Assembly: GCA_016207925.1 (NCBI GenBank)
Contig: JACQZB010000014.1
Span: 2,345-34,693 of the forward strand
Direction of reading: 5' to 3'
DNA length: 32,349 bases
Source of the DNA: Nitrospinota bacterium
GTDB taxonomy: Bacteria > Nitrospinota_A > UBA7883
Below are positions 1,163 through 14,235 of the stretch, in pieces; within the stretch, counting starts at the first letter, position 1; every line of letters starts with the position of its first letter. The notes under the pieces are model-generated. The model saw nothing but the letters and a program-made list of their open reading frames with translations, was not told where the DNA came from and ran no database searches. A program made the position numbers and the translations under genes.

Positions 1163-2518
1163 TCAAGGCTCCATCAGCCGCGCGCTGCGTTCCATGACTT
1201 CCTGGATGCGCCGGTCGGTCCGGCGCACCTTCTCGGCCAGAATGGAGGCCAGGCTCTTGAACAGCTTGACGCACAACTCCGGACGGGTGACGCGCAGGGC
1301 CACTTCGTTGATGGCCACCAGCCGCACGCGCCCGATGGCCCGCGCCGTGGCGGAGCGGGGCGAGTTGTCTATCACCGCCATTTCGCCGAACAGTTCGCCC
1401 TCCCGCAGGACGCTGATCTCGTGTTCCCCGCCGCCCGCGCCTTTCTGGACGATTTTCACCTGTCCGTCAATGATGACGTACATCTTGTTGCCCGGAGCGC
1501 CCTCGCTGAAAATCACCTCGCCGTCGGGGTGATCCTCCCGCGACGCCAGTTTGAAAAGCTCCACAATCTCCTCATCCTCGAACGTTGAAAAGAAGGTGTA
1601 GTTTTTCCGCAGCGCGCGCACTACCCGCAGTTTTTCATCCCCCAGGATGGCGAAGGCGGGCGATTCGGCCATCTCGAGGCGGCTTAGGTACAGGTCAAGG
1701 GCGTCGGCGAACTGGGAGGCCGAAGGGTACCGCTGTTCGCGGCGCTTGGCCAACGCGTGGGTCAACACCCGGTCCAGTTCGGCGGGCAGCGTCGGATTCA
1801 CCGAAGGCAGCGGCGGCGGCGGATCGCGCAGGATCGCCGCGAACAGCTCGCGCAGCGACGCGCCCTCGAATGGGCGGCGCCCCGTGAGCAGCTCGAACGC
1901 GGTGACGCCAAGGCTGTAGATGTCCGTCTTGTGGTCCACCGGTTCGCCGCGGATCTGCTCCGGCGACATGTAGTGGGGTGTGCCAAGGATGCGCCCGGTT
2001 TCCATCTGGTCCAGCAGGGGGCCGGTGTCGAGCTTGGCCACTCCAAAATCCATGATTTTCGGTTCGCGCCCCTCGACGATCATGATGTTGCCGGGCTTGA
2101 TGTCGCGGTGGATCACCCCGCGCTGGTGGGCGAAGGCCAGCGTCCGTCCCGCGGAGGCCAGCACCCGCAGCCGTTCCAGAAGCGGCAGGGGGTGGCGTGC
2201 CTTGATGATCTCCTCGAGCGTGACGCCTTTGACGTATTCCATGACGAAAAACGGCGCCCCCTGGTCATGCCCGATGTCGTAAATGGCGGTGATGTTGGGG
2301 TGGGCCAGGCGCCCGGCGATTTTGGCCTCGCGCACGAAAATCTCGATGGCGTCGCGCTCGCCCAGGGCGTCAAAGCTTTCGCCCGCGCTGATGGTTTTGA
2401 CCGCGACGACCCGGTCCAGCGCCGTGTCCAGCGCCTTGTACACCACCCCCATCGAGCCGCGGCCCAGCGAGTCCAACAGGCGGTAACGGCCCAGATGCAG
2501 GGCTTTACCGGCGCTCAT
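1163..2518 (-). CDS. Ser/Thr protein kinase with C-terminal cyclic-nucleotide-binding domain
   Basis: A 451-residue Hanks-type kinase fused to a CRP-like sensor domain. Kinase motifs are intact: glycine loop GRGSMG (19-24), VAVK lysine (Lys41), HRDIKPGN (137-144, catalytic Asp139), DFG (157-159) and the SPE version of APE (185-187). A linker leads to a cNMP-binding domain (about 308-425) whose phosphate cassette, FGEMAVIDNSPRSATARA (377-394), matches the CRP/PKA pattern including the RSA core. There is no membrane helix, so the kinase is probably soluble and could be gated by cAMP or c-di-GMP-like ligands (inference). The ATG at 2518 was chosen because the kinase domain starts about 11 residues later and a GGAAG lies upstream; the frame is open further upstream but that part looks non-coding. 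It is divergent from the Mgl module, with which it shares a 210-base intergenic region. Confidence 0.93.
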   Translation of the reverse strand: MSAGKALHLGRYRLLDSLGRGSMGVVYKALDTALDRVVAVKTISAGESFDALGERDAIEIFVREAKIAGRLAHPNITAIYDIGHDQGAPFFVMEYVKGVTLEEIIKARHPLPLLERLRVLASAGRTLAFAHQRGVIHRDIKPGNIMIVEGREPKIMDFGVAKLDTGPLLDQMETGRILGTPHYMSPEQIRGEPVDHKTDIYSLGVTAFELLTGRRPFEGASLRELFAAILRDPPPPLPSVNPTLPAELDRVLTHALAKRREQRYPSASQFADALDLYLSRLEMAESPAFAILGDEKLRVVRALRKNYTFFSTFEDEEIVELFKLASREDHPDGEVIFSEGAPGNKMYVIIDGQVKIVQKGAGGGEHEISVLREGELFGEMAVIDNSPRSATARAIGRVRLVAINEVALRVTRPELCVKLFKSLASILAEKVRRTDRRIQEVMERSARLMEP

Positions 2519-2570
2519 CAAAACAGCTTCCGTAAAGCCATTGCCAACTCTCCCGGCGCCTGAAAACTGT

Positions 2571-2600
2571 TTGACACAACAGGCGTTTCTTACATACAAT
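2571..2600 (+). promoter_or_regulatory. Predicted sigma-70 promoter of the roadblock/Mgl operon
   Basis: A perfect -35 TTGACA (2571-2576) and a TACAAT -10 (2595-2600) are separated by 18 bases. Transcription would start near 2607, leaving a leader of about 120 bases before the TPR-roadblock gene at 2729. This is the only good promoter I see ahead of the tightly packed row to 8757. Confidence 0.65.
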
Positions 2601-2605
2601 GAGTC

Positions 2606-2639
2606 CACTGTAAGTCCAGTGAACATATACTTTTCACTG
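2606..2639. promoter_or_regulatory. Repeated CACTG/CAGTG half-sites, possible operator
   Basis: Three half-sites alternate in orientation just downstream of the -10 box: CACTG at 2606-2610, CAGTGAA at 2617-2623 and TTCACTG at 2633-2639. They form two overlapping dyads that share the middle half-site (5-6-5 and 7-9-7). A related direct repeat, GTCCACTG / GTCCAGTG, recurs with an 11-base period (2603 and 2614), one helical turn. Placement at the expected transcription start, in the divergent region between the kinase and the Mgl operon, fits a regulator-binding site. The regulator is unknown. Confidence 0.4.
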
Positions 2640-2728
2640 TACCATAAGGGTGGGAAAAGGCTCATAAGATTCCTGATCGCGTCACCGTAGCGCGCGGTCA
2701 TATCGAGCCGCGATAGGTCTGTTTACAG

Positions 2729-3706
2729 ATGGCGAATAGTCAACAGGCGAACGGCTCGGCTCCCGGTCCTACGGAAGATTACATCCGGATGGCCAAGGAG
2801 CTTAAGAACCTCAACGAATACACCTTGGCCGTTGAGGTACTCGACAAGGCGCTCAAAAAACATCCCGACAACAGCAACATCTTTGTTCTCAAGGCGCAAG
2901 TGCTGGTCTCCAAGTTCAAGAAGGAGGCCAAGCCGGAGCTGCTCAAGGAAGCCCTTCGGGTGTTGGAGCAAGCCCTCAAACTTGATCCGGAAAGTTACAC
3001 GGCCAAACTGCTGGCCGCGCAGATACTGCTCAAGGGCAGGGCCTACAAACAGGCCGGCGCGCTTTTACGCAATATCCTCAAACGCTTCCCCGACGATGAA
3101 AAAGCCGCCGCGATGATCGCCATGCTCCGCAAGGAGACGGGCGGCGAACCGGAACCGCCCGCGGAAGCGGCGGCCCCGGCGGCTGAACCGAAAGCGGCGG
3201 AGCCAGCCGCGCAAGCGCCCCAGCCCGCGCCCGCGGAGGAGGAAGCCGTCGCGGAAGCGGCGGCGCCCGCCAAGTTCGATGACACCGCCCCCACCGATCA
3301 GTGGGTGCTTGATGACCAACTAGTGATAGACGCCAGCGATGACGCGGAGAACCTGGGGCACCTGAACCTGATGGGCGACAAGCTGACGATGTTCGGGCGC
3401 ATTGAGGGCCTCAACGCCATGTTCATCATTGACGGCAACGGGCAGATGTTCAAATCCATCAACCGCGGCGGAGTGAACGAAAACGTCATCCCTTCGATGG
3501 TATCCAACCTCTACCGCGCCTCGGTGACCGGCATGAAACGCACCGCCAACGGCAGCTTTCAGCGCGGAACGCTGGTGACCCCGGTGGGTACCTTTGTCAT
3601 CGTCAACGCTTTTTACGCCACGCTGGCGCTGGCCCTGTCCAACGACGCCAATATGACCGTGGTGGAGGCCCGCATCCAGCGCTACCTCGAAGAGATTTCC
3701 GAATGA
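2729..3706 (+). CDS. TPR protein with C-terminal roadblock/LC7-like domain
   Basis: A 325-residue protein in three parts. Residues 15-135 are TPR-like helices (for example YTLAVEVLDKALKKHPDNSN and ALRVLEQALKLDPES). Residues 138-190 are a Pro/Ala/Glu-rich linker. Residues 195-325 look like a roadblock/LC7 fold, with the strand-turn-strand GRIEGLNAMFIIDGNGQMFKS at its start and a helix-strand finish. Roadblock proteins dimerise and act as regulators of MglA-type small GTPases, and TPRs supply protein-protein contacts. There is no signal peptide. Its stop overlaps the next start (ATGA at 3703-3706), so it is translationally coupled to a second roadblock protein and then an MglA-type GTPase. The roadblock call is pattern-based; the TPR call is firmer. 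Confidence 0.8.
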   Translation: MANSQQANGSAPGPTEDYIRMAKELKNLNEYTLAVEVLDKALKKHPDNSNIFVLKAQVLVSKFKKEAKPELLKEALRVLEQALKLDPESYTAKLLAAQILLKGRAYKQAGALLRNILKRFPDDEKAAAMIAMLRKETGGEPEPPAEAAAPAAEPKAAEPAAQAPQPAPAEEEAVAEAAAPAKFDDTAPTDQWVLDDQLVIDASDDAENLGHLNLMGDKLTMFGRIEGLNAMFIIDGNGQMFKSINRGGVNENVIPSMVSNLYRASVTGMKRTANGSFQRGTLVTPVGTFVIVNAFYATLALALSNDANMTVVEARIQRYLEEISE

Positions 3707-4068
3707 CCACGTCCCTCAAATCCGCGTTGACCGTGCTGTGCGGCGCCAAGAACGTGCGCGGCGGGTTGATCATCACCAAGGACGGCATGATCATCGAATC
3801 GAACATCGAGGATAAAAAACAGGCCGAAACGCTGGGCGCCTTCATGTCCCACATCGCGCTGAACATAAAGATTTCCCTTAAGGAACTGGGCGCCACCGAT
3901 TTCACCCGCTATGTGCTACAATCCAACAAAAGCCGCGTTTTTCTTGTGGATTTGGGCAAATCGGTGCTGGTGACGCTCACCGACCCCGATGTGGACACGG
4001 CCGCCATCAATGTGGCGATCTATCAAGCCGCCAACCAGATAAAGAAAAGCGGCAGGCTGGACGTATGA
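3703..4068 (+). CDS. Roadblock/LC7 domain protein (MglB-like)
   Basis: A 121-residue single-domain protein. The core GGLIITKDGMIIESN (about 20-34), a central helix (AETLGAFMSHIALNIKISLKEL) and the paired strands ending in VFLVDLGKSVLVTLTDPDVD match the roadblock/LC7 fold used by MglB, the GTPase-activating partner of MglA. It is shorter than the second MglB-like protein at 5342. It overlaps the upstream TPR-roadblock gene by four bases and ends 26 bases before the MglA-fusion gene, so the GTPase is flanked by roadblock proteins on both sides. Which of the two is the true GAP cannot be told from sequence. Confidence 0.82.
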   Translation: MTTSLKSALTVLCGAKNVRGGLIITKDGMIIESNIEDKKQAETLGAFMSHIALNIKISLKELGATDFTRYVLQSNKSRVFLVDLGKSVLVTLTDPDVDTAAINVAIYQAANQIKKSGRLDV

Positions 4069-4094: not shown

Positions 4095-5315
4095 ATGCAG
4101 ATCAATTACGCAAAAAAGGAAATTTCCTGCAAGCTGGTCTATTACGGCCCCGGCATGAGCGGCAAAACCACCAACCTGGAAGTCATCCACCAAAAAGTCC
4201 CCGATGAAAACAAGGGCGAGATGACCTCCATCGCTACCGAGGGCGACCGGACGCTGTTCTTCGACTTTTTACCGCTGGATCTGGGGCGGGTGCGCGGCAT
4301 GACCACCAAGTTCCAACTGTACACCGTGCCCGGCCAGATCTACTATGCCTCCACCCGCAAGCTGGTGCTCCAGGGGGCCGACGCGGTGATTTTCGTGGCG
4401 GACTCGCAAGCCGAGAAAATGCCCGAAAATATTGAATCGCTCAAGGACCTGCAGGACAACCTGGCGGAATACGGGATCAAGATTGATGAAATCCCCCTGG
4501 TGCTCCAGTGGAACAAGCGCGACCTGCCCTCCGCGTTGCCCGTGGAGGAGTTGGACGCCAAGATCAACTGGATGAAAGCCTCCACCGTGGAGGCGATCGC
4601 CGCCACCGGCGAGGGGGTGTTGCCCACGCTCAAGACCGCGGCATCGCTGGTGCTTGACCGGCTCAACGCCAAAACCCCCGGCGCCCCGCCCCCCGCCGCG
4701 GCCGCGGCGGCCCCCGCCGAGGAGAAGAAGCAGGAAGTGTATGTGTCGCGGGTCAACCATGACCAGATATCGCGTTCGTACTTTAACCAGTACTGCCAAC
4801 TCCAGTACCGCATCAACGCGAAAAGCGTCCCCGTGGAGGACTTCAAGAAGTTCACGCTGGAGGAGAAAAAGAAACTCCTTGAGTCACTGATAAATTACGT
4901 CCTAATATTACAGGACGCGAAGAAGCGCAACATCAAGGCCTCCAAGGAGGAGGTGGACAAACAGGTGGCCGCCTTCGTAAAGCGGTTCAATTCACAGGAG
5001 AAGCTTGACGAGTTTCTCCAGTCGCGCAAGATCAGCCTGGACAACCTTCGCAACGAAGGCACCAAGAACATCATCATCGGCAAGCTGATCGCGCAGGTCA
5101 TCCCCGATCTGGGCGAACGCACCAAGATCACCGAACATGACCTGCGCGCGTTCCACGAATCCAACGCCGCGCTGTTCGGCGGAAAAAGTTTTGATCAGAC
5201 CAAGAATGAGGCGCTGGCCGCCTACAAAAATCACATGAAGCGCGCGCTGCTCGAGGAGTTTTACGGCAAGCTCCGGGAGCAGGCCCGCATCGAGATTTTC
5301 CAGGATAAGCTCTAA
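4095..5315 (+). CDS. mglA: MglA-type small GTPase fused to a SurA-N-like chaperone domain
   Basis: A 406-residue protein, about twice the usual MglA length (about 195). Residues 1-195 are a full MglA GTPase: P-loop GPGMSGKT (18-25), switch I region with GDRTLFFDF (Arg52), switch II TVPGQ (77-81, Gln81) and base-specifying NKRD (140-143). These match the positions of the catalytic Arg and Gln known in MglA. An Ala/Pro linker (196-211) leads to residues 215-406, which follow the SurA N-terminal/trigger-factor-like chaperone pattern: a VNHDQISRSYF opening, LLESLINYVLILQDAKKRNIK, EEVDKQVAAFVKRFNS, LDNLRNEGTKNIIIGKLIAQVI, then ITEHDLRAFHESN. No PPIase domain and no signal peptide are present, so the chaperone-like part should be cytoplasmic. 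A GAAGG precedes the ATG. The C-terminal assignment is by pattern and needs a profile or structure test. Confidence 0.88.
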   Translation: MQINYAKKEISCKLVYYGPGMSGKTTNLEVIHQKVPDENKGEMTSIATEGDRTLFFDFLPLDLGRVRGMTTKFQLYTVPGQIYYASTRKLVLQGADAVIFVADSQAEKMPENIESLKDLQDNLAEYGIKIDEIPLVLQWNKRDLPSALPVEELDAKINWMKASTVEAIAATGEGVLPTLKTAASLVLDRLNAKTPGAPPPAAAAAAPAEEKKQEVYVSRVNHDQISRSYFNQYCQLQYRINAKSVPVEDFKKFTLEEKKKLLESLINYVLILQDAKKRNIKASKEEVDKQVAAFVKRFNSQEKLDEFLQSRKISLDNLRNEGTKNIIIGKLIAQVIPDLGERTKITEHDLRAFHESNAALFGGKSFDQTKNEALAAYKNHMKRALLEEFYGKLREQARIEIFQDKL

Positions 5316-5341: not shown

Positions 5342-5842
5342 ATGAAAGACGATCAACTCCGGAAAAAGCGGCTGGTGTACTACAAGGAAGACCTTGACCA
5401 GATAGACAAGCTGCTCGAGGAGTTCCTCAAGCTCTCCAACGCCAAGTGCATCTTCCTGATAGACAAGGAAGGGCATCTGGTCACCAGCAAGGGGGCCGCG
5501 CGCAACTTGAACCCCGAAACGCTCTCCGCGCTGGTGGCGGGTTCCTTTGCGGCTACCAAGGAAATGGCCAAGATGCTCGGTGAAACGGAATTTTCGGTGA
5601 TGTTCCACCAGGGGGCGCGGGACCATATCCATATTTCGCTGGTAAGCGAACGGGCCATCAGCGCAACCATATTCGACGAGAAAACCACGGTGGGCATGGT
5701 CAACCTGTATTCCAAGGAACTTTCCTCCAAGCTCGAAAAAATATTCGACATCGCCATGCGCCGCGTGGCCCAGGATGTGCCGGTGGAACAGGACTACTCC
5801 GACTCGGTCAAGGACCGGCTCGACGACCTGTTCAAGGAATAA
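5342..5842 (+). CDS. mglB: MglB-like roadblock/LC7 protein
   Basis: A 166-residue protein with the MglB layout. A helical N-terminus (YYKEDLDQIDKLLEEFLKLS, 14-32) precedes a roadblock core with CIFLIDKEGHLVTSKG (36-51), a long helix over ALVAGSFAATKEMAKMLG (63-80), strands FSVMFHQGARDHIHISLV (84-101) and a closing helix. MglB is the GTPase-activating protein and polarity partner of MglA in known gliding bacteria. A GGAGG lies about nine bases ahead of the ATG. It follows the MglA fusion gene by 26 bases, which supports the partner assignment. The tail (148-166) is acidic and probably flexible. Confidence 0.85.
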   Translation: MKDDQLRKKRLVYYKEDLDQIDKLLEEFLKLSNAKCIFLIDKEGHLVTSKGAARNLNPETLSALVAGSFAATKEMAKMLGETEFSVMFHQGARDHIHISLVSERAISATIFDEKTTVGMVNLYSKELSSKLEKIFDIAMRRVAQDVPVEQDYSDSVKDRLDDLFKE

Positions 5843-5851
5843 TCCCCGCCC

Positions 5852-7556
5852 ATGCGAGAAGCGTTCCGCCTTTCACCGGCGCGCCGGGGCCTTCTGATGC
5901 CCGCCCTGACCATGGCGGCGGCCCTGTGCATGGTCGATGCGCCGGCCAGCGCGCAGCGGGTGGAGGAACGCCGGTACCTGGACGCGCGGGAATTCGCCCG
6001 CTATTCCTTCACGGCGAACCCCGAGACCCCACGCCCATTTCTTTATGGCGCGCGACGCGGTTTCCGGCGAGCGCAAGGACGTCAACACCGCCCTGACCGA
6101 ATCGCTGGCGGGCGCGCGCGCGGCTTTGTCCGACCGCTTTTCGCGCAGCGCGCTGCTGGCGCGGGCGGCGCCCTGGGCCATGGCGGGCCTGCTGGCCGCG
6201 TTCACCACCACGTTCGTCATCGTGTTCTTGGTGGAGTTCCGGGCGGCGGCGGCGGACCTTACCTCGCGGCTGCCCGTGGCGTTGGAAAGCCCCTGGCGGG
6301 CGGCGGCGGCGGCGCTGGGCGCGCTTATCCCGCTGGCCGCGGGGGGGTGGGTGTTCATGGCGCTGGCGGCGCCGCTTTTGGTGTGGCCCTATCTTAGGCG
6401 GGGCGGGCAGGTGGTGGTGATCCTGTTCACCCTGTTCGCCCTGGGCGCGCCGCCGGTGTTGACATGGATGGGCGCCGGCGCGGCCTTGCGTTCGGCGGAG
6501 GCCTACCGCGCCGTGTACCTGCTGTCCAGCGAGACGTGGGATTTTGAAACCAGGGCCGCGCTGGAAAAAGAGCATGTCCGCCAGCCCGGCGATGAATTGA
6601 CCACCTTCGCCCTGGGCCTGCTCAACAAGCTTGCGCGCGACAAGGACGCGGCGCTGGCCGCCTACGACGCGCTGCTGTTAAGGGATTCCGCCAACGTGCG
6701 CGCGCTGGTCAACAAGGGCAACGTGTATTTCGCCTTCAAGGATTGGCCCGCGGCGGCGGACATGTACCGCCAGGCCATCGCCGCCAACACCCAAACGGCG
6801 GAGGCGCACTACAACCTCTCCAAGGCGTACACGGAGATGTTTCTCAACAAGGAATCCGACGCGGCCTATCAGCAGGCCCGCGCCATTGACCCCAAGAAAA
6901 CCGACGGATTCCGCGACATGTCGCTCCTGGATCCGGAGCGCAAGGTGGTGGACTTCCCCATCACCGCCGAGGACTTGCGCGCGGCCGGGCGCCGGCTGGA
7001 CAGCGCCAGCCAAGCCGCGGGGGATGCGATGTGGAAACGGTATTTCGGGAATCTGTCGCAACAAACCTACAAGATCGTCACCGGCGCCTACCTGTTGCTG
7101 CTGCTGATCGTGTTTGCCTTTTGGAGCCGCTCCATCTCCAGCGTGGTGTGCCATTCTTGCGGCGCGGTCTTTCAGCCCCCCATCCGCCTGGAGGCGGCCA
7201 CGCCCACCTGCACGCAATGCGTGGCGGCGCAAAGCACGCGCGGCGCCGTGTCGTCCGCCAAAAAGGACAAAAAACGCAAGGAAATGCGCGACTACAAGGA
7301 TTTACGCGGCAAAGTGGCCGGCGCGCTGGACCGGGCTTTGCCGGGCGCGGGGCGCGTCTATTTCCGCGAACCGCTCTCCGGCCTCCCCTTCATGCTGGTC
7401 ACCAGCCTGATCCTGATTTACGCCGGGGTGGTGGTGTGGGACGCCCTGGGCGGCGCGCCGCGGGCCAACCCGCTGGCGGATCACGCCGTGTTCTTGACGG
7501 CGGCGGCCCTGTACTGGGCCGTAATGAACACCGTGTTCATGAAGGATTACTACTGA
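5852..7556 (+). CDS. TPR membrane protein with zinc ribbon, interrupted by a one-base frameshift
   Basis: Two overlapping frames together give one 567-residue protein. The first, from the ATG at 5852, has a hydrophobic signal-like segment ending ASAQR and the stretch YLDAREFARYSFTANPE. The second continues HAHFFMARDAVSGERKDVNTALTES, which completes a TPR-like repeat. The switch best fits one extra C in the CCCC at 6027-6030, where third-codon GC also changes frame. Downstream come two or three hydrophobic helices (about 6170-6470), TPRs (about 6590-6900), another helix near 7090, a ribbon-type CxxC pair (CHSC and CTQC, 7150-7222) and C-terminal helices. It starts nine bases after mglB and ends one base before the DUF4388 gene, so it belongs to the operon. 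It may be a membrane anchor for the Mgl proteins (inference). The extra base may be a sequencing error. Confidence 0.75.
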
Positions 7557-7557
7557 C

Positions 7558-8757
7558 ATGGCGCTCAAGGGCAGCCTGGAGGATTTCTCCATCGTCAACA
7601 TTCTCCAGATGATCAAGCTGGAGTCCAAAACCGGGCGCCTTGCGCTCTCCGACGACGCCGATACGCTTAAAATCACCTTCGACGAAGGCTCCATCATCTA
7701 CGCCGAGGGGACGGCGGCCAAGGACGAATACCGCATCCAGGCCACGCTTTTGGCCAACACGCTCATCGGCGCCCAGGAGTGGAACGCCATCCGCCAGGAG
7801 CATGAGGAGCGCCTCAAGCCCTATTGGGAGTTGCTGTCCAAGGCGCTCAGTCCGCAGACGCTTATCGAACTCATCCAGCGGCAGACCATTGACACCGTGT
7901 ACCACGCCCTGCGCTGGAAAAAAGGCTCGTATGAATTCGAGCCGATGAACAAGATCAAGTACAACCCCAAGGTCATGCCCAAGATGGATGTGGACGGCCT
8001 GTTGATGGAAGGCTGCCGCATCGCCGACGAGTGGACCCGCGTCACCAAGGCCCTGCCGCCGCTGGACACCTTCGTGGTCAAGAACATTATGGGCGAAAAT
8101 GACGAGGAAGACGCCATCACCACGCGCGCGCAGGGGAGCGGCGGCGGCGGCGACTACCGCTCCTCGCTGGAATACGAGATACTCACCGCGCGCGGGATAC
8201 AGGTGAACAACGCCCAGGTCGCCGTGCTGTCGGCCATGGGCCAGGGCTTGACCATCCGCGAGTTGATGGATCATGCGCGGCAGGGGCATTTCGCCACGCT
8301 CGAAGCGGTCCAGGCGCTCCTGCAGATTGGCGTGCTCAAGATAGCCGAACGCAAGGACAAGAAGCGCATCGCCGCGGACCACACGGGAACCTCGGCGCAG
8401 TTGGTGGTGGTGTTGGCGCTGGCCCTGATCCTGGCGGCGGGCGCGTATTGGCAGTACCTCTCCTGGCCCGCTGACGCCGCGGCGCGCGCGGGGGGCGTGA
8501 CCGCGCTCAAAAAAATCCAGGCCGGGGAAGGACTGTCAAAAATCGCTTACGCCATCCGGATACACCTTGCCCTCGCCGGCGCCATGCCCAAGCGGCTGGA
8601 CAACCTGGTGGAATCCGGCGCGCTGGAACCGCGGGACCTTACCGATCCCTGGGGCGCGCCCTACCAGGCGGTGTTCGAGGAAGGGCGTTTCGCCCTCTTT
8701 TCCACCGGCCCCGACGTGGTGCTTAACACCGACAACATCTACTACACCGCCGAGTGA
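7558..8757 (+). CDS. DUF4388 protein with membrane helix and GspG-like C-terminus
   Basis: A 399-residue fusion. Residues 1-130 are a DUF4388 (PATAN-like) domain, recognisable from LEDFSIVNILQMIKLESKTGRLALS and the later FDEGSIIYAEG. This domain is common in Deltaproteobacteria-type signalling and gliding proteins. Residues 200-265 are helical and winged-helix-like (VAVLSAMGQGLTIRELM). One membrane helix spans about 281-301. The part beyond it (315-399) ends in DPWGAPYQAVFEEGRFALFSTGPD, the C-terminal signature of type II secretion pseudopilin GspG. Its usual N-terminal prepilin helix is absent and the fold is hung on the internal membrane helix instead. A cytoplasmic signalling domain is thus linked to a probable periplasmic pseudopilin-like domain. 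It follows the TPR membrane gene by one base. Confidence 0.85.
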   Translation: MALKGSLEDFSIVNILQMIKLESKTGRLALSDDADTLKITFDEGSIIYAEGTAAKDEYRIQATLLANTLIGAQEWNAIRQEHEERLKPYWELLSKALSPQTLIELIQRQTIDTVYHALRWKKGSYEFEPMNKIKYNPKVMPKMDVDGLLMEGCRIADEWTRVTKALPPLDTFVVKNIMGENDEEDAITTRAQGSGGGGDYRSSLEYEILTARGIQVNNAQVAVLSAMGQGLTIRELMDHARQGHFATLEAVQALLQIGVLKIAERKDKKRIAADHTGTSAQLVVVLALALILAAGAYWQYLSWPADAAARAGGVTALKKIQAGEGLSKIAYAIRIHLALAGAMPKRLDNLVESGALEPRDLTDPWGAPYQAVFEEGRFALFSTGPDVVLNTDNIYYTAE

Positions 8758-12546: not shown

Positions 12547-14235
12547 TTACGCGGAGCAACAGGAAAGCTTGCCCGTATCTCTTGTGAATCCTTGGGCGCA
12601 CAGCTTGATGCCCTCGCCCTGCGTCAAGTATGGATGAAACATCGCGGCGATCTCCGCGGCCCCGATTCCGTAACGGATCGCCAGCGCCGCCTCCATGATC
12701 TGTTCGCCGCCTTCCGGCGCCAGCGCCCGCGCCCCAAGAATCCGGTCGCTTCCGCGCTCCTTGATCAACTTGATGAATCCGCGCGTATCCCGCGCGGCGA
12801 GCGCCCTGGGAACCTTGAAAAGATCGAGTTTGGACACGGCCACCGCAACCCCCAACCGCGCCGCCTCCTTTTCGTTGATCCCTACGCCCGCGACCTGGGG
12901 ATCGGTGAAAATCACCCACGGCAACACTGTGTAGTCACGTTTCAAGCGGTTCTCCCCAAGCGCGTTATCCGCGGCCAGGCGGCCTTCATAGGCCGCCGTG
13001 TAAACAAACGCGGGTTCGCCGTTCACATCGCCCGCCGCGTAAACGCCGGAACCCGAAGTCCGCAGATGATCGTCCACCATGATGCGCCCATCGGCGGCCA
13101 GGGTGACACCGGCGTTTTCCAAACCCATGTCCTCCGTTACGGGACGTCTGCCGGTGGCGCAGAGTATGCGCTCCGCGCTGAAAATCTTTTCCTCCCCGCC
13201 AATCCGGGCATGAACGGCGATCCCTCCTTGTTCGCGCGACACGCGCTCGACGGAGACCGAAGTCTCAACCACAAGGCCGTCGTCTCGCAGGTACGCGGCC
13301 AGCGCTTCGGTCAGGTCCTCATCTTCATCCGGCAGAAGGTGGCCGCCGCGCTGGAGAACGGTCACCCGGGCGCCGAGCCGGGCGAGCATCTGCGCGCATT
13401 CCAATGCGATGTAGCGCCCGCCCAGGACGATGACGGATCCGGGCAGGCGGTCAAGTTCAAACGCCGTGGTACTGGTAAGCGGATCGGCTTCGCGCAAACC
13501 GGGAATCGGCGGTATCCAGGGGCGTGAGCCTGTCGCCACGATGATGCGCGGGGCGCGCAGAACGCGGCCATCCACCGCAAGCGTATCCGGCGCGGTAAAG
13601 CGCGCGCGGCCTTCGATCAGCCGGATATTCCCGTATGCGGCCAGGACATCCGCATATTTCGTCTGACGCAACGAGGCGACCAATTCGTCCTTCTCCCGGA
13701 TAATTGCGGCGAAGTCCGAAACGCGGGAAAAACTCTCTATGCCCGCGAATCGGCTGGACGACGCCCGATGATGGGCCTCCGCGGCGCGAATAAGGGTTTT
13801 GGATGGGACGCACCCGGCATTGACGCAGGTTCCGCCAAGCGTCCCCGTGTTGATCATAATGACTTTCGCGCCCAGTTCATCCCCGCGGATGGCCGCGGCA
13901 AACCCGGCCGAACCGCCCCCGATGATGATCAGATCGGCATCCACGCCATTTTGTTTGTCGGCGGGGATGGAAGGAGAATCACGGACCGTTCCTTGTTCCG
14001 GACGGAAGTTTTCGTCTCCTTTGAGTTCAGCTAGGTAGCCGGCGCCCTGTATCGCGGAAACAACCTGCCGCGGATCCATCCCCCTCTCACCCTTGATGAC
14101 GGCGTGGCCGGATTCAAAATCTATCTCCGCCCTCAAGACACCCGGCACGTTTTCGGCCGCTTTTTTAACCGTGGCCGCGCAATGGCCGCACGTCATGCCC
14201 TTAACCACCATCCGGTATTCCCGTTGCTCTGTCAT
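12547..14235 (-). CDS. merA: Mercuric reductase with N-terminal metal-binding domain
   Basis: A 562-residue FAD/NAD(P)H-dependent enzyme that reduces Hg(II) to volatile Hg(0) in the cytoplasm. Residues 5-72 form an HMA domain with GMTCGHC (13-19). The flavin site begins IIIGGGSAG (103-111). The redox pair is in GGTCVNAGCVPSK (134-146, Cys137 and Cys142). The NADPH-binding strand-turn is VIVLGGRYIALE. The C-terminal vicinal cysteines that hand over mercury are present (LSCCSA, Cys559/560). Length and all key cysteines match Tn501-type MerA, so it should be active. AGGAGG precedes the ATG at 14235. It lies ten bases after merT, last in a merR-merT-merA operon. Confidence 0.97.
   Translation of the reverse strand: MTEQREYRMVVKGMTCGHCAATVKKAAENVPGVLRAEIDFESGHAVIKGERGMDPRQVVSAIQGAGYLAELKGDENFRPEQGTVRDSPSIPADKQNGVDADLIIIGGGSAGFAAAIRGDELGAKVIMINTGTLGGTCVNAGCVPSKTLIRAAEAHHRASSSRFAGIESFSRVSDFAAIIREKDELVASLRQTKYADVLAAYGNIRLIEGRARFTAPDTLAVDGRVLRAPRIIVATGSRPWIPPIPGLREADPLTSTTAFELDRLPGSVIVLGGRYIALECAQMLARLGARVTVLQRGGHLLPDEDEDLTEALAAYLRDDGLVVETSVSVERVSREQGGIAVHARIGGEEKIFSAERILCATGRRPVTEDMGLENAGVTLAADGRIMVDDHLRTSGSGVYAAGDVNGEPAFVYTAAYEGRLAADNALGENRLKRDYTVLPWVIFTDPQVAGVGINEKEAARLGVAVAVSKLDLFKVPRALAARDTRGFIKLIKERGSDRILGARALAPEGGEQIMEAALAIRYGIGAAEIAAMFHPYLTQGEGIKLCAQGFTRDTGKLSCCSA

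Follow-up and report, generated by a model that had tools for sequence, protein, structure and literature searches.

The 32,349-nucleotide stretch of Nitrospinota DNA analysed here (the window) encodes a protein in which a DUF4388 domain, a probable winged-helix-like domain, a single membrane helix and a C-terminal domain resembling the type II secretion system (T2SS) pseudopilin G (GspG) are fused, and this architecture is that of a conserved family represented in Nitrospinota, in the majority of the genomes from a myxobacterial phylum and in scattered other lineages. The domains are known singly; their combination, and the conserved pairing of the fusion with a TPR-containing membrane protein, appear to be undescribed in the available text of the open-licence PMC literature. 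The anatomy of the fusion, that is, which domains lie inside and which outside the membrane, is well supported; its function, including every interaction discussed below, we infer. The preliminary description of this DNA had recognized the DUF4388 domain, the membrane helix and the GspG-like end; it overlooked the winged-helix-like domain, how widely the family occurs, and, among the neighbouring genes, the conserved TPR-membrane partner and the MglA/Roadblock operon.

Domain architecture and topology of the fusion protein

The open reading frame starts with ATG and encodes 399 residues followed by a stop codon. The following features were assigned:

7558..8757, + strand: whole gene of the DUF4388 - winged helix - TM - GspG-like fusion, 399 aa
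7567..8034, + strand: DUF4388/PATAN domain, residues 4-159 (Pfam), with a helical insertion at about 53-118
8158..8361, + strand: probable winged-helix-like domain, residues about 201-268, weakly supported (model and HTH Pfam matches in relatives)
8398..8466, + strand: membrane helix, residues 281-303 (hydrophobicity, model)
8491..8754, + strand: GspG-like, predicted periplasmic domain, residues 312-399 (profile, predicted fold, alignment)

The N-terminal domain, DUF4388, which we take to be the PATAN domain, is readily identified (PF14332, residues 4-159, E 4.9e-26, 91.6 bits against a cut-off of 25); control genomes with a PF14332 match include Synechococcus elongatus. In the host genome (2.67 Mb, 91% complete), the fusion is present in a single copy and is the only DUF4388 protein. 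Comparison of DUF4388 with solved structures by sequence found no relative, and fold searches with the full-length model, which was built from 5 sequences and reaches a pLDDT of 51 overall with confidence in the DUF4388 half only, returned nothing useful for this domain. In 7 of the 28 family proteins scanned (one in a set of 18 and six in a set of 10: L047, L104, L115, L117, L121, L122 and L129), the NCBIfam MshE-related c-di-GMP motif scores above the cut-off at residues ~59-113, inside the PATAN domain. The MshEN c-di-GMP receptor, in contrast, carries two 24-residue RLG..Q motifs: the relaxed form of the motif given in the available text of PMC5013675 occurs once in 13 of the 81 family sequences (a set in which four proteins are counted twice), and none of the 81 retains both copies. 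The window protein has no match to the MshE motif, and its helical insertion is degenerate. Judging by these motifs, some fusion lineages may bind c-di-GMP, with the helical insertion of PATAN suggested as an MshE-like site, and the window fusion probably does not. No statement that this insertion is an MshE-type c-di-GMP motif was found in the open-licence PMC literature, as far as its text is available.

The middle of the protein probably contains a winged-helix-like domain. Residues 198-278 of the full-length model, with pLDDT below 60 in this region, resemble winged helices (best Z 7.5), and there are weak HTH Pfam matches in single relatives. A similar segment was read by eye after DUF4388 in a relative that has no membrane helix (L018).

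The GspG-like character of the C-terminus, claimed in the preliminary description, was borne out by both a family profile and fold superposition. Taken alone, the window protein gives an only suggestive match to Pfam T2SSG at residues 352-391 (E 0.037), its 14.5 bits falling below the cut-off of 21. We rely on a profile of relatives and a second structural aligner rather than on the single sequence or on Foldseek. The profile was derived from the C-termini of 18 aligned full-length relatives, the window protein included, with 19-54% identity to the latter; these were picked by whole-protein similarity, independently of the C-terminus. Of 19 distinct PDB sequences that this profile matched at E <=10, the best eight are all T2SS pseudopilin G, with E-values from 7.9e-7 to 2.1e-3 (2kep, 7.9e-7; 1t92, 1.5e-5; 5wda, 6.2e-5; the rest, 2.3e-4 to 2.1e-3). 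Among the relatives themselves, 16 of 18 match T2SSG at E <=1 (best E 1.3e-8), and 8 of 18 match the GspG family TIGR01710 at E <=0.1. A model of residues 276-399, built from 4 sequences (pLDDT 74.7, pTM 0.57), consists of helices 278-302 and 305-340, a hairpin at 370-382 and a last strand at 394-398. With VIA-align 2, five GspG crystal structures rank first against this model (Z 9.4-10.5), followed by other pilins: PulG 1t92 superimposes with Z 10.5 at 1.8 Å over 83 residues (24% identity), and 3gn9, 3g20, 3fu1 and 4lw9 score 10.0, 9.9, 9.7 and 9.4, respectively. The structure comparison proposed in the preliminary description thus ended, at the level of a predicted fold, with that of GspG; Foldseek alone also placed pilins and pseudopilins at the top, yet none with E <0.1.

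The domain comprises an alpha1-C helix, the DPWGxPY motif, a beta-hairpin and the GPD loop. Alignment with the canonical GspG of the host and a GspG from another genome revealed a pattern of P, DxW, Y and S-x-G-x-D common to all. In the region of the GspG calcium loop, the window protein keeps GPD and TDN, and the loop pattern is found in 17 of the 81 family sequences. On the strength of the profile and the predicted fold, the C-terminus of the fusion is taken as a GspG-like fold.

The host genome encodes another putative carrier of this domain, a 252-residue putative lipoprotein on contig C100 (L143:1216-1974, - strand), which suggests that the pseudopilin fold is reused outside filaments; the adjoining gene was labelled OmpA/MotB-like from reading its sequence.

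The membrane helix after the DUF4388 half, also proposed earlier, was located at residues 281-303, after KDKKR. A single hydrophobic segment per protein, with a TM score of at least 1.6, is present in 80 of the 81 family sequences. The net positive charge is higher on the N side of the helix in 56 of the 81 and not in the other 25, a moderate positive-inside signal for the family. Because the fusion protein has no signal peptide and DUF4388 comes first, followed by one hydrophobic segment, the C-terminus is predicted to lie outside and not on the cytoplasmic side, the placement that the preliminary description had named as contrary to its reading. The suggested coupling of an inner signalling domain to an outer pilin-like one stands with respect to the anatomy; the actual passage of a signal is conjectural.

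The earlier observation that the prepilin leader is missing also holds, as there is no class III leader with Glu5. No prepilin motif precedes the helix of the window protein, and G/A-x4-E near the helix was found in only one of the 81 family sequences, where it lies in a hydrophilic stretch and is not leader-like. In its predicted topology, the fusion corresponds to a prepilin before processing, with 280 cytoplasmic residues standing as the leader. The absence of a prepilin leader implies that the fusion is not a pseudopilin and does not undergo the usual processing into a filament. There is no gsp cluster around the fusion gene; the host's gsp cluster, with its own canonical GspG, is on contig C61.

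Distribution and genomic context of the family

The search for the same architecture in other genomes, also proposed earlier, yielded a conserved family in several phyla. Three of the four named relative loci come from Nitrospinota metagenome-assembled genomes, and the fourth from a genome titled Nitrospirae. In the phylum of G051, the family profile matches 100 of 117 genomes at E 1e-30, and about 80 among the matches listed extend into the C-terminal part. The MglA of G051, which bears the fusion, is nearly identical to solved MglA structures of Myxococcus xanthus, which indicates that this phylum is myxobacterial. Of 193 relatives of G043, 37 match the family; the phylum of G037 comprises one genome only. 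Examination of 69 matching DUF4388 proteins revealed the GspG-like C-terminus in 63 and other architectures in 6. The proteins of G010 and G006 run into contig ends, which leaves their C-termini unseen or partial.

In Nitrospinota, the fusion gene is the last of an operon-like series of six genes, the preceding five of which are:

2729..3706, + strand: TPR protein with a C-terminal Roadblock-like region (sequence reading; orthologues in 12/12 regions)
3703..4068, + strand: Roadblock protein (domain scan)
4095..5315, + strand: MglA-type GTPase with a C-terminal SurA_N-like helical domain (domain scan)
5342..5842, + strand: Roadblock/MglB-like protein (domain scan)
5852..7556, + strand: partner, TPR multi-helix membrane protein with a zinc ribbon (open frame 5937-7556)

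This gene order is kept in all 12 Nitrospinota-type regions; MoaB follows the fusion in 7 of them. The MglA matches solved MglA structures with E about 1e-68, and with an MglA GTPase and Roadblock proteins the operon classifies as an MglA polarity module, which the fusion gene accompanies without helping to define it. The MglA protein itself combines a periplasmic-chaperone type domain with a cytoplasmic GTPase; of the 24 phylum genomes searched, 17 encode this combination at full length. On the opposite strand, 1163-2701 (-) encodes a divergent Ser/Thr kinase that ends in a cNMP-binding-like domain (sequence reading), and in 6 of the 12 regions a divergent kinase gene lies ahead of the operon.

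Only one base separates the TGA stop of the partner from the ATG of the fusion, which suggests coupled translation. Near its N-terminus, the partner has several membrane helices, followed by TPRs and a helix; then comes a CxxC..CxxC ribbon with a Lys/Arg-rich stretch behind it, and two helices close the protein. Its charge and cysteines point to TPRs in the periplasm and a ribbon in the cytoplasm. The partner gene appears to be frame-shifted in the assembly, with the signal peptide in the frame of ORF 5852-6397 and the remainder in 5937-7556, and the window partner has no counterpart of the N-terminal stretch present in the homologues L036 and L037.

Outside Nitrospinota, 62 of 63 fusion loci have a homologue of the TPR-membrane protein as the immediate upstream gene on the same strand, and phoH lies downstream in 48 of the 63; these loci represent 63 genomes, and the counts are weighted to myxobacteria, 30 loci (L084-L113) being the 30 top matches from a single phylum. 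The partner-fusion pair stands upstream of phoH in L047, L048 and L049, and a 7TM-HD (pgpH-type) gene follows phoH in two regions scanned (L048 and L049). Of the genes seen to adjoin the fusion, none is a pil or gsp/T2SS gene.

Among 24 genomes of the window's phylum, MglA is present in all 16 that have the fusion and in one of the eight that do not; in that one (G003), the contig ends inside the partner gene. In a set of 193 genomes, MglA accompanies the fusion in 30 of 30 cases and occurs in 51 of 163 fusion-negative genomes (Fisher p 1e-13, a value that ignores kinship; with the 9 positives that belong to one family collapsed to one, p is 1.4e-10). Of the 30 positives, 28 were checked individually, G007 was taken from the alignment and G178 was found as two contig fragments. 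A smaller set, which overlaps the 193-genome set and is not independent of it, has MglA in 30/30 positives and 7/17 negatives. MglA is present also with all seven DUF4388 proteins that have no GspG-like part, so the link is between DUF4388 and MglA and is not specific to the fusion; this agrees with the adjacency of some MglA genes and MglB homologues to PATAN genes described in the available text of PMC4316618. The co-occurrence test aimed specifically at pili was uninformative because T2SSE ATPases are nearly universal, being found in 24/24 phylum genomes (16/16 of the fusion-positive ones) and, in the smaller overlapping set, in 30/30 fusion-positive and 15/17 fusion-negative genomes; finding them is no proof of a link, and neither pili nor T2SS evidently require the fusion.

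Possible functions

The role that we consider the likeliest, if only tentatively, is that of a bitopic inner-membrane adaptor that would give the polarity pathway of MglA and PATAN a connection to the machinery of pili or pseudopili. According to the available text of the respective papers, PATAN proteins bind the pilus motor PilB/PilC in Synechocystis, where PixE and PixG are reported to bind PilB1 and PixG also PilC (PMC10519157, PMC12288463), and in Myxococcus xanthus the recruitment of PilB is under the direction of MglA (PMC11580455); taken together, a membrane adaptor touching the pilus machinery would be the best fit. In such an arrangement, the fusion and its TPR/zinc-ribbon partner would form a membrane complex in which the GspG-like domain meets the partner's TPRs in the periplasm, and the PATAN/winged-helix part meets the partner's zinc ribbon in the cytoplasm. 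Like an unprocessed pilin subunit, the GspG-like domain could dock on the pilus/pseudopilus assembly platform or read its state, and PATAN could recruit or gate the extension ATPase under the control of MglA-GTP; the c-di-GMP-like site in PATAN, degenerate in the window organism, might provide a second input in some relatives. This role is favoured by the GspG homology, the fixed architecture, the fixed partner, the MglA/Roadblock operon and the co-occurrence with MglA; against it speak the absence of pil/T2SS neighbours, the usual proximity of phoH, the uninformative T2SSE distribution, an MglA link that is not fusion-specific and the reuse of the fold elsewhere. A bolder version, which we consider unlikely, is a two-protein transmembrane switch, in which the membrane-tethered pilin fold would stand in the pilus/pseudopilus base as a dummy or lookout, sense from the periplasmic side how the filament is assembled or loaded, and signal through PATAN, with its c-di-GMP-type insertion in some lineages, to MglA and the extension ATPase.

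A possible, if doubtful, alternative is that the GspG-like domain is a generic periplasmic dock for the partner and that the pair regulates a process unrelated to pili, such as envelope or RNA metabolism near phoH and pgpH. The near-constant partner, the downstream phoH and pgpH-type genes, the lack of adjacent pil or gsp genes and the GspG-like domain of the putative lipoprotein in the same genome all agree with such a dock; however, PATAN relatives of known function act on pilus motors, MglA co-occurs with the fusion, and in Nitrospinota the pair lies within the MglA/Roadblock operon. That the protein is a membrane-bound transcription factor of the ToxR/CadC type, with a DNA-binding winged helix and a sensory periplasmic domain, seems improbable: the resemblance of residues 198-278 to winged helices and the weak HTH matches in single relatives are what such a factor would lead one to expect, but the model has low pLDDT there, the best Z lies in the range of middling matches, and the similar segment in the helix-less L018 could equally be a protein-interaction winged helix.

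Non-canonical cleavage followed by incorporation into a T2SS pseudopilus or type IV pilus is still harder to credit and highly unlikely in our judgement. Despite the prepilin-like topology and fold, there is neither a class III leader nor Glu5, the only motif match among the 81 sequences being spurious, and the host has a canonical GspG in its gsp cluster. A resemblance of the C-terminus to GspG by chance or through an annotation artefact, for which the single sequence scoring under the T2SSG cut-off might be cited, is effectively refuted by the family profile, the fold and the conservation across phyla.

Relation to known systems

Response regulators of the PixE/PixG/LsiR type are soluble proteins with a receiver domain. 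These Synechocystis regulators use PATAN as a cytoplasmic effector module, as the fusion appears to do, whereas the fusion has a winged-helix-like domain, a membrane helix and a GspG-like periplasmic domain on the output side. With GspG (PulG, EpsG, XcpT), the fusion shares the predicted fold, the N-in/C-out topology and the DPWGxPY motif, and some relatives also have the S-G-x-D-G..GT-DDI loop; it differs in that 280 cytoplasmic residues replace the prepilin leader, in having no Glu5, and in its location outside a gsp operon. The MglA and MglB-like Roadblock genes of the operon recall the MglA/MglB module of Myxococcus xanthus and Thermus; here, in contrast, MglA has the SurA_N-like extension and the operon ends in a membrane pair, an ending for which no description was found in the available text of the open-licence PMC literature. 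The MglA-dependent control of PilB by the SgmX/SopA/FrzS network of M. xanthus resembles what is proposed for the fusion. Two M. xanthus PATAN proteins, MXAN_3211 and MXAN_4965, co-occur with SgmX, and in the available text, unlike the fusion, they have no reported membrane or pilin-like domain. For the fusion architecture itself, the available open-licence PMC literature yielded no description, DUF4388 appearing there only as a table entry.

How pilus activity in the envelope is reported to cytoplasmic polarity and c-di-GMP circuits is an open question, for which the fusion, with a pilin fold predicted outside and a domain of pilus-motor-binding type inside, is a direct, testable candidate, the more so as it is present in myxobacteria, a genetically tractable group. 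If the adaptor role is correct, it would suggest a direct line between the fibres on the cell surface and the steering machinery of the cell.

Elsewhere in the window, the gene at 12547-14235 (- strand) combines, as read from its sequence, an HMA domain with a mercuric-reductase-like oxidoreductase.
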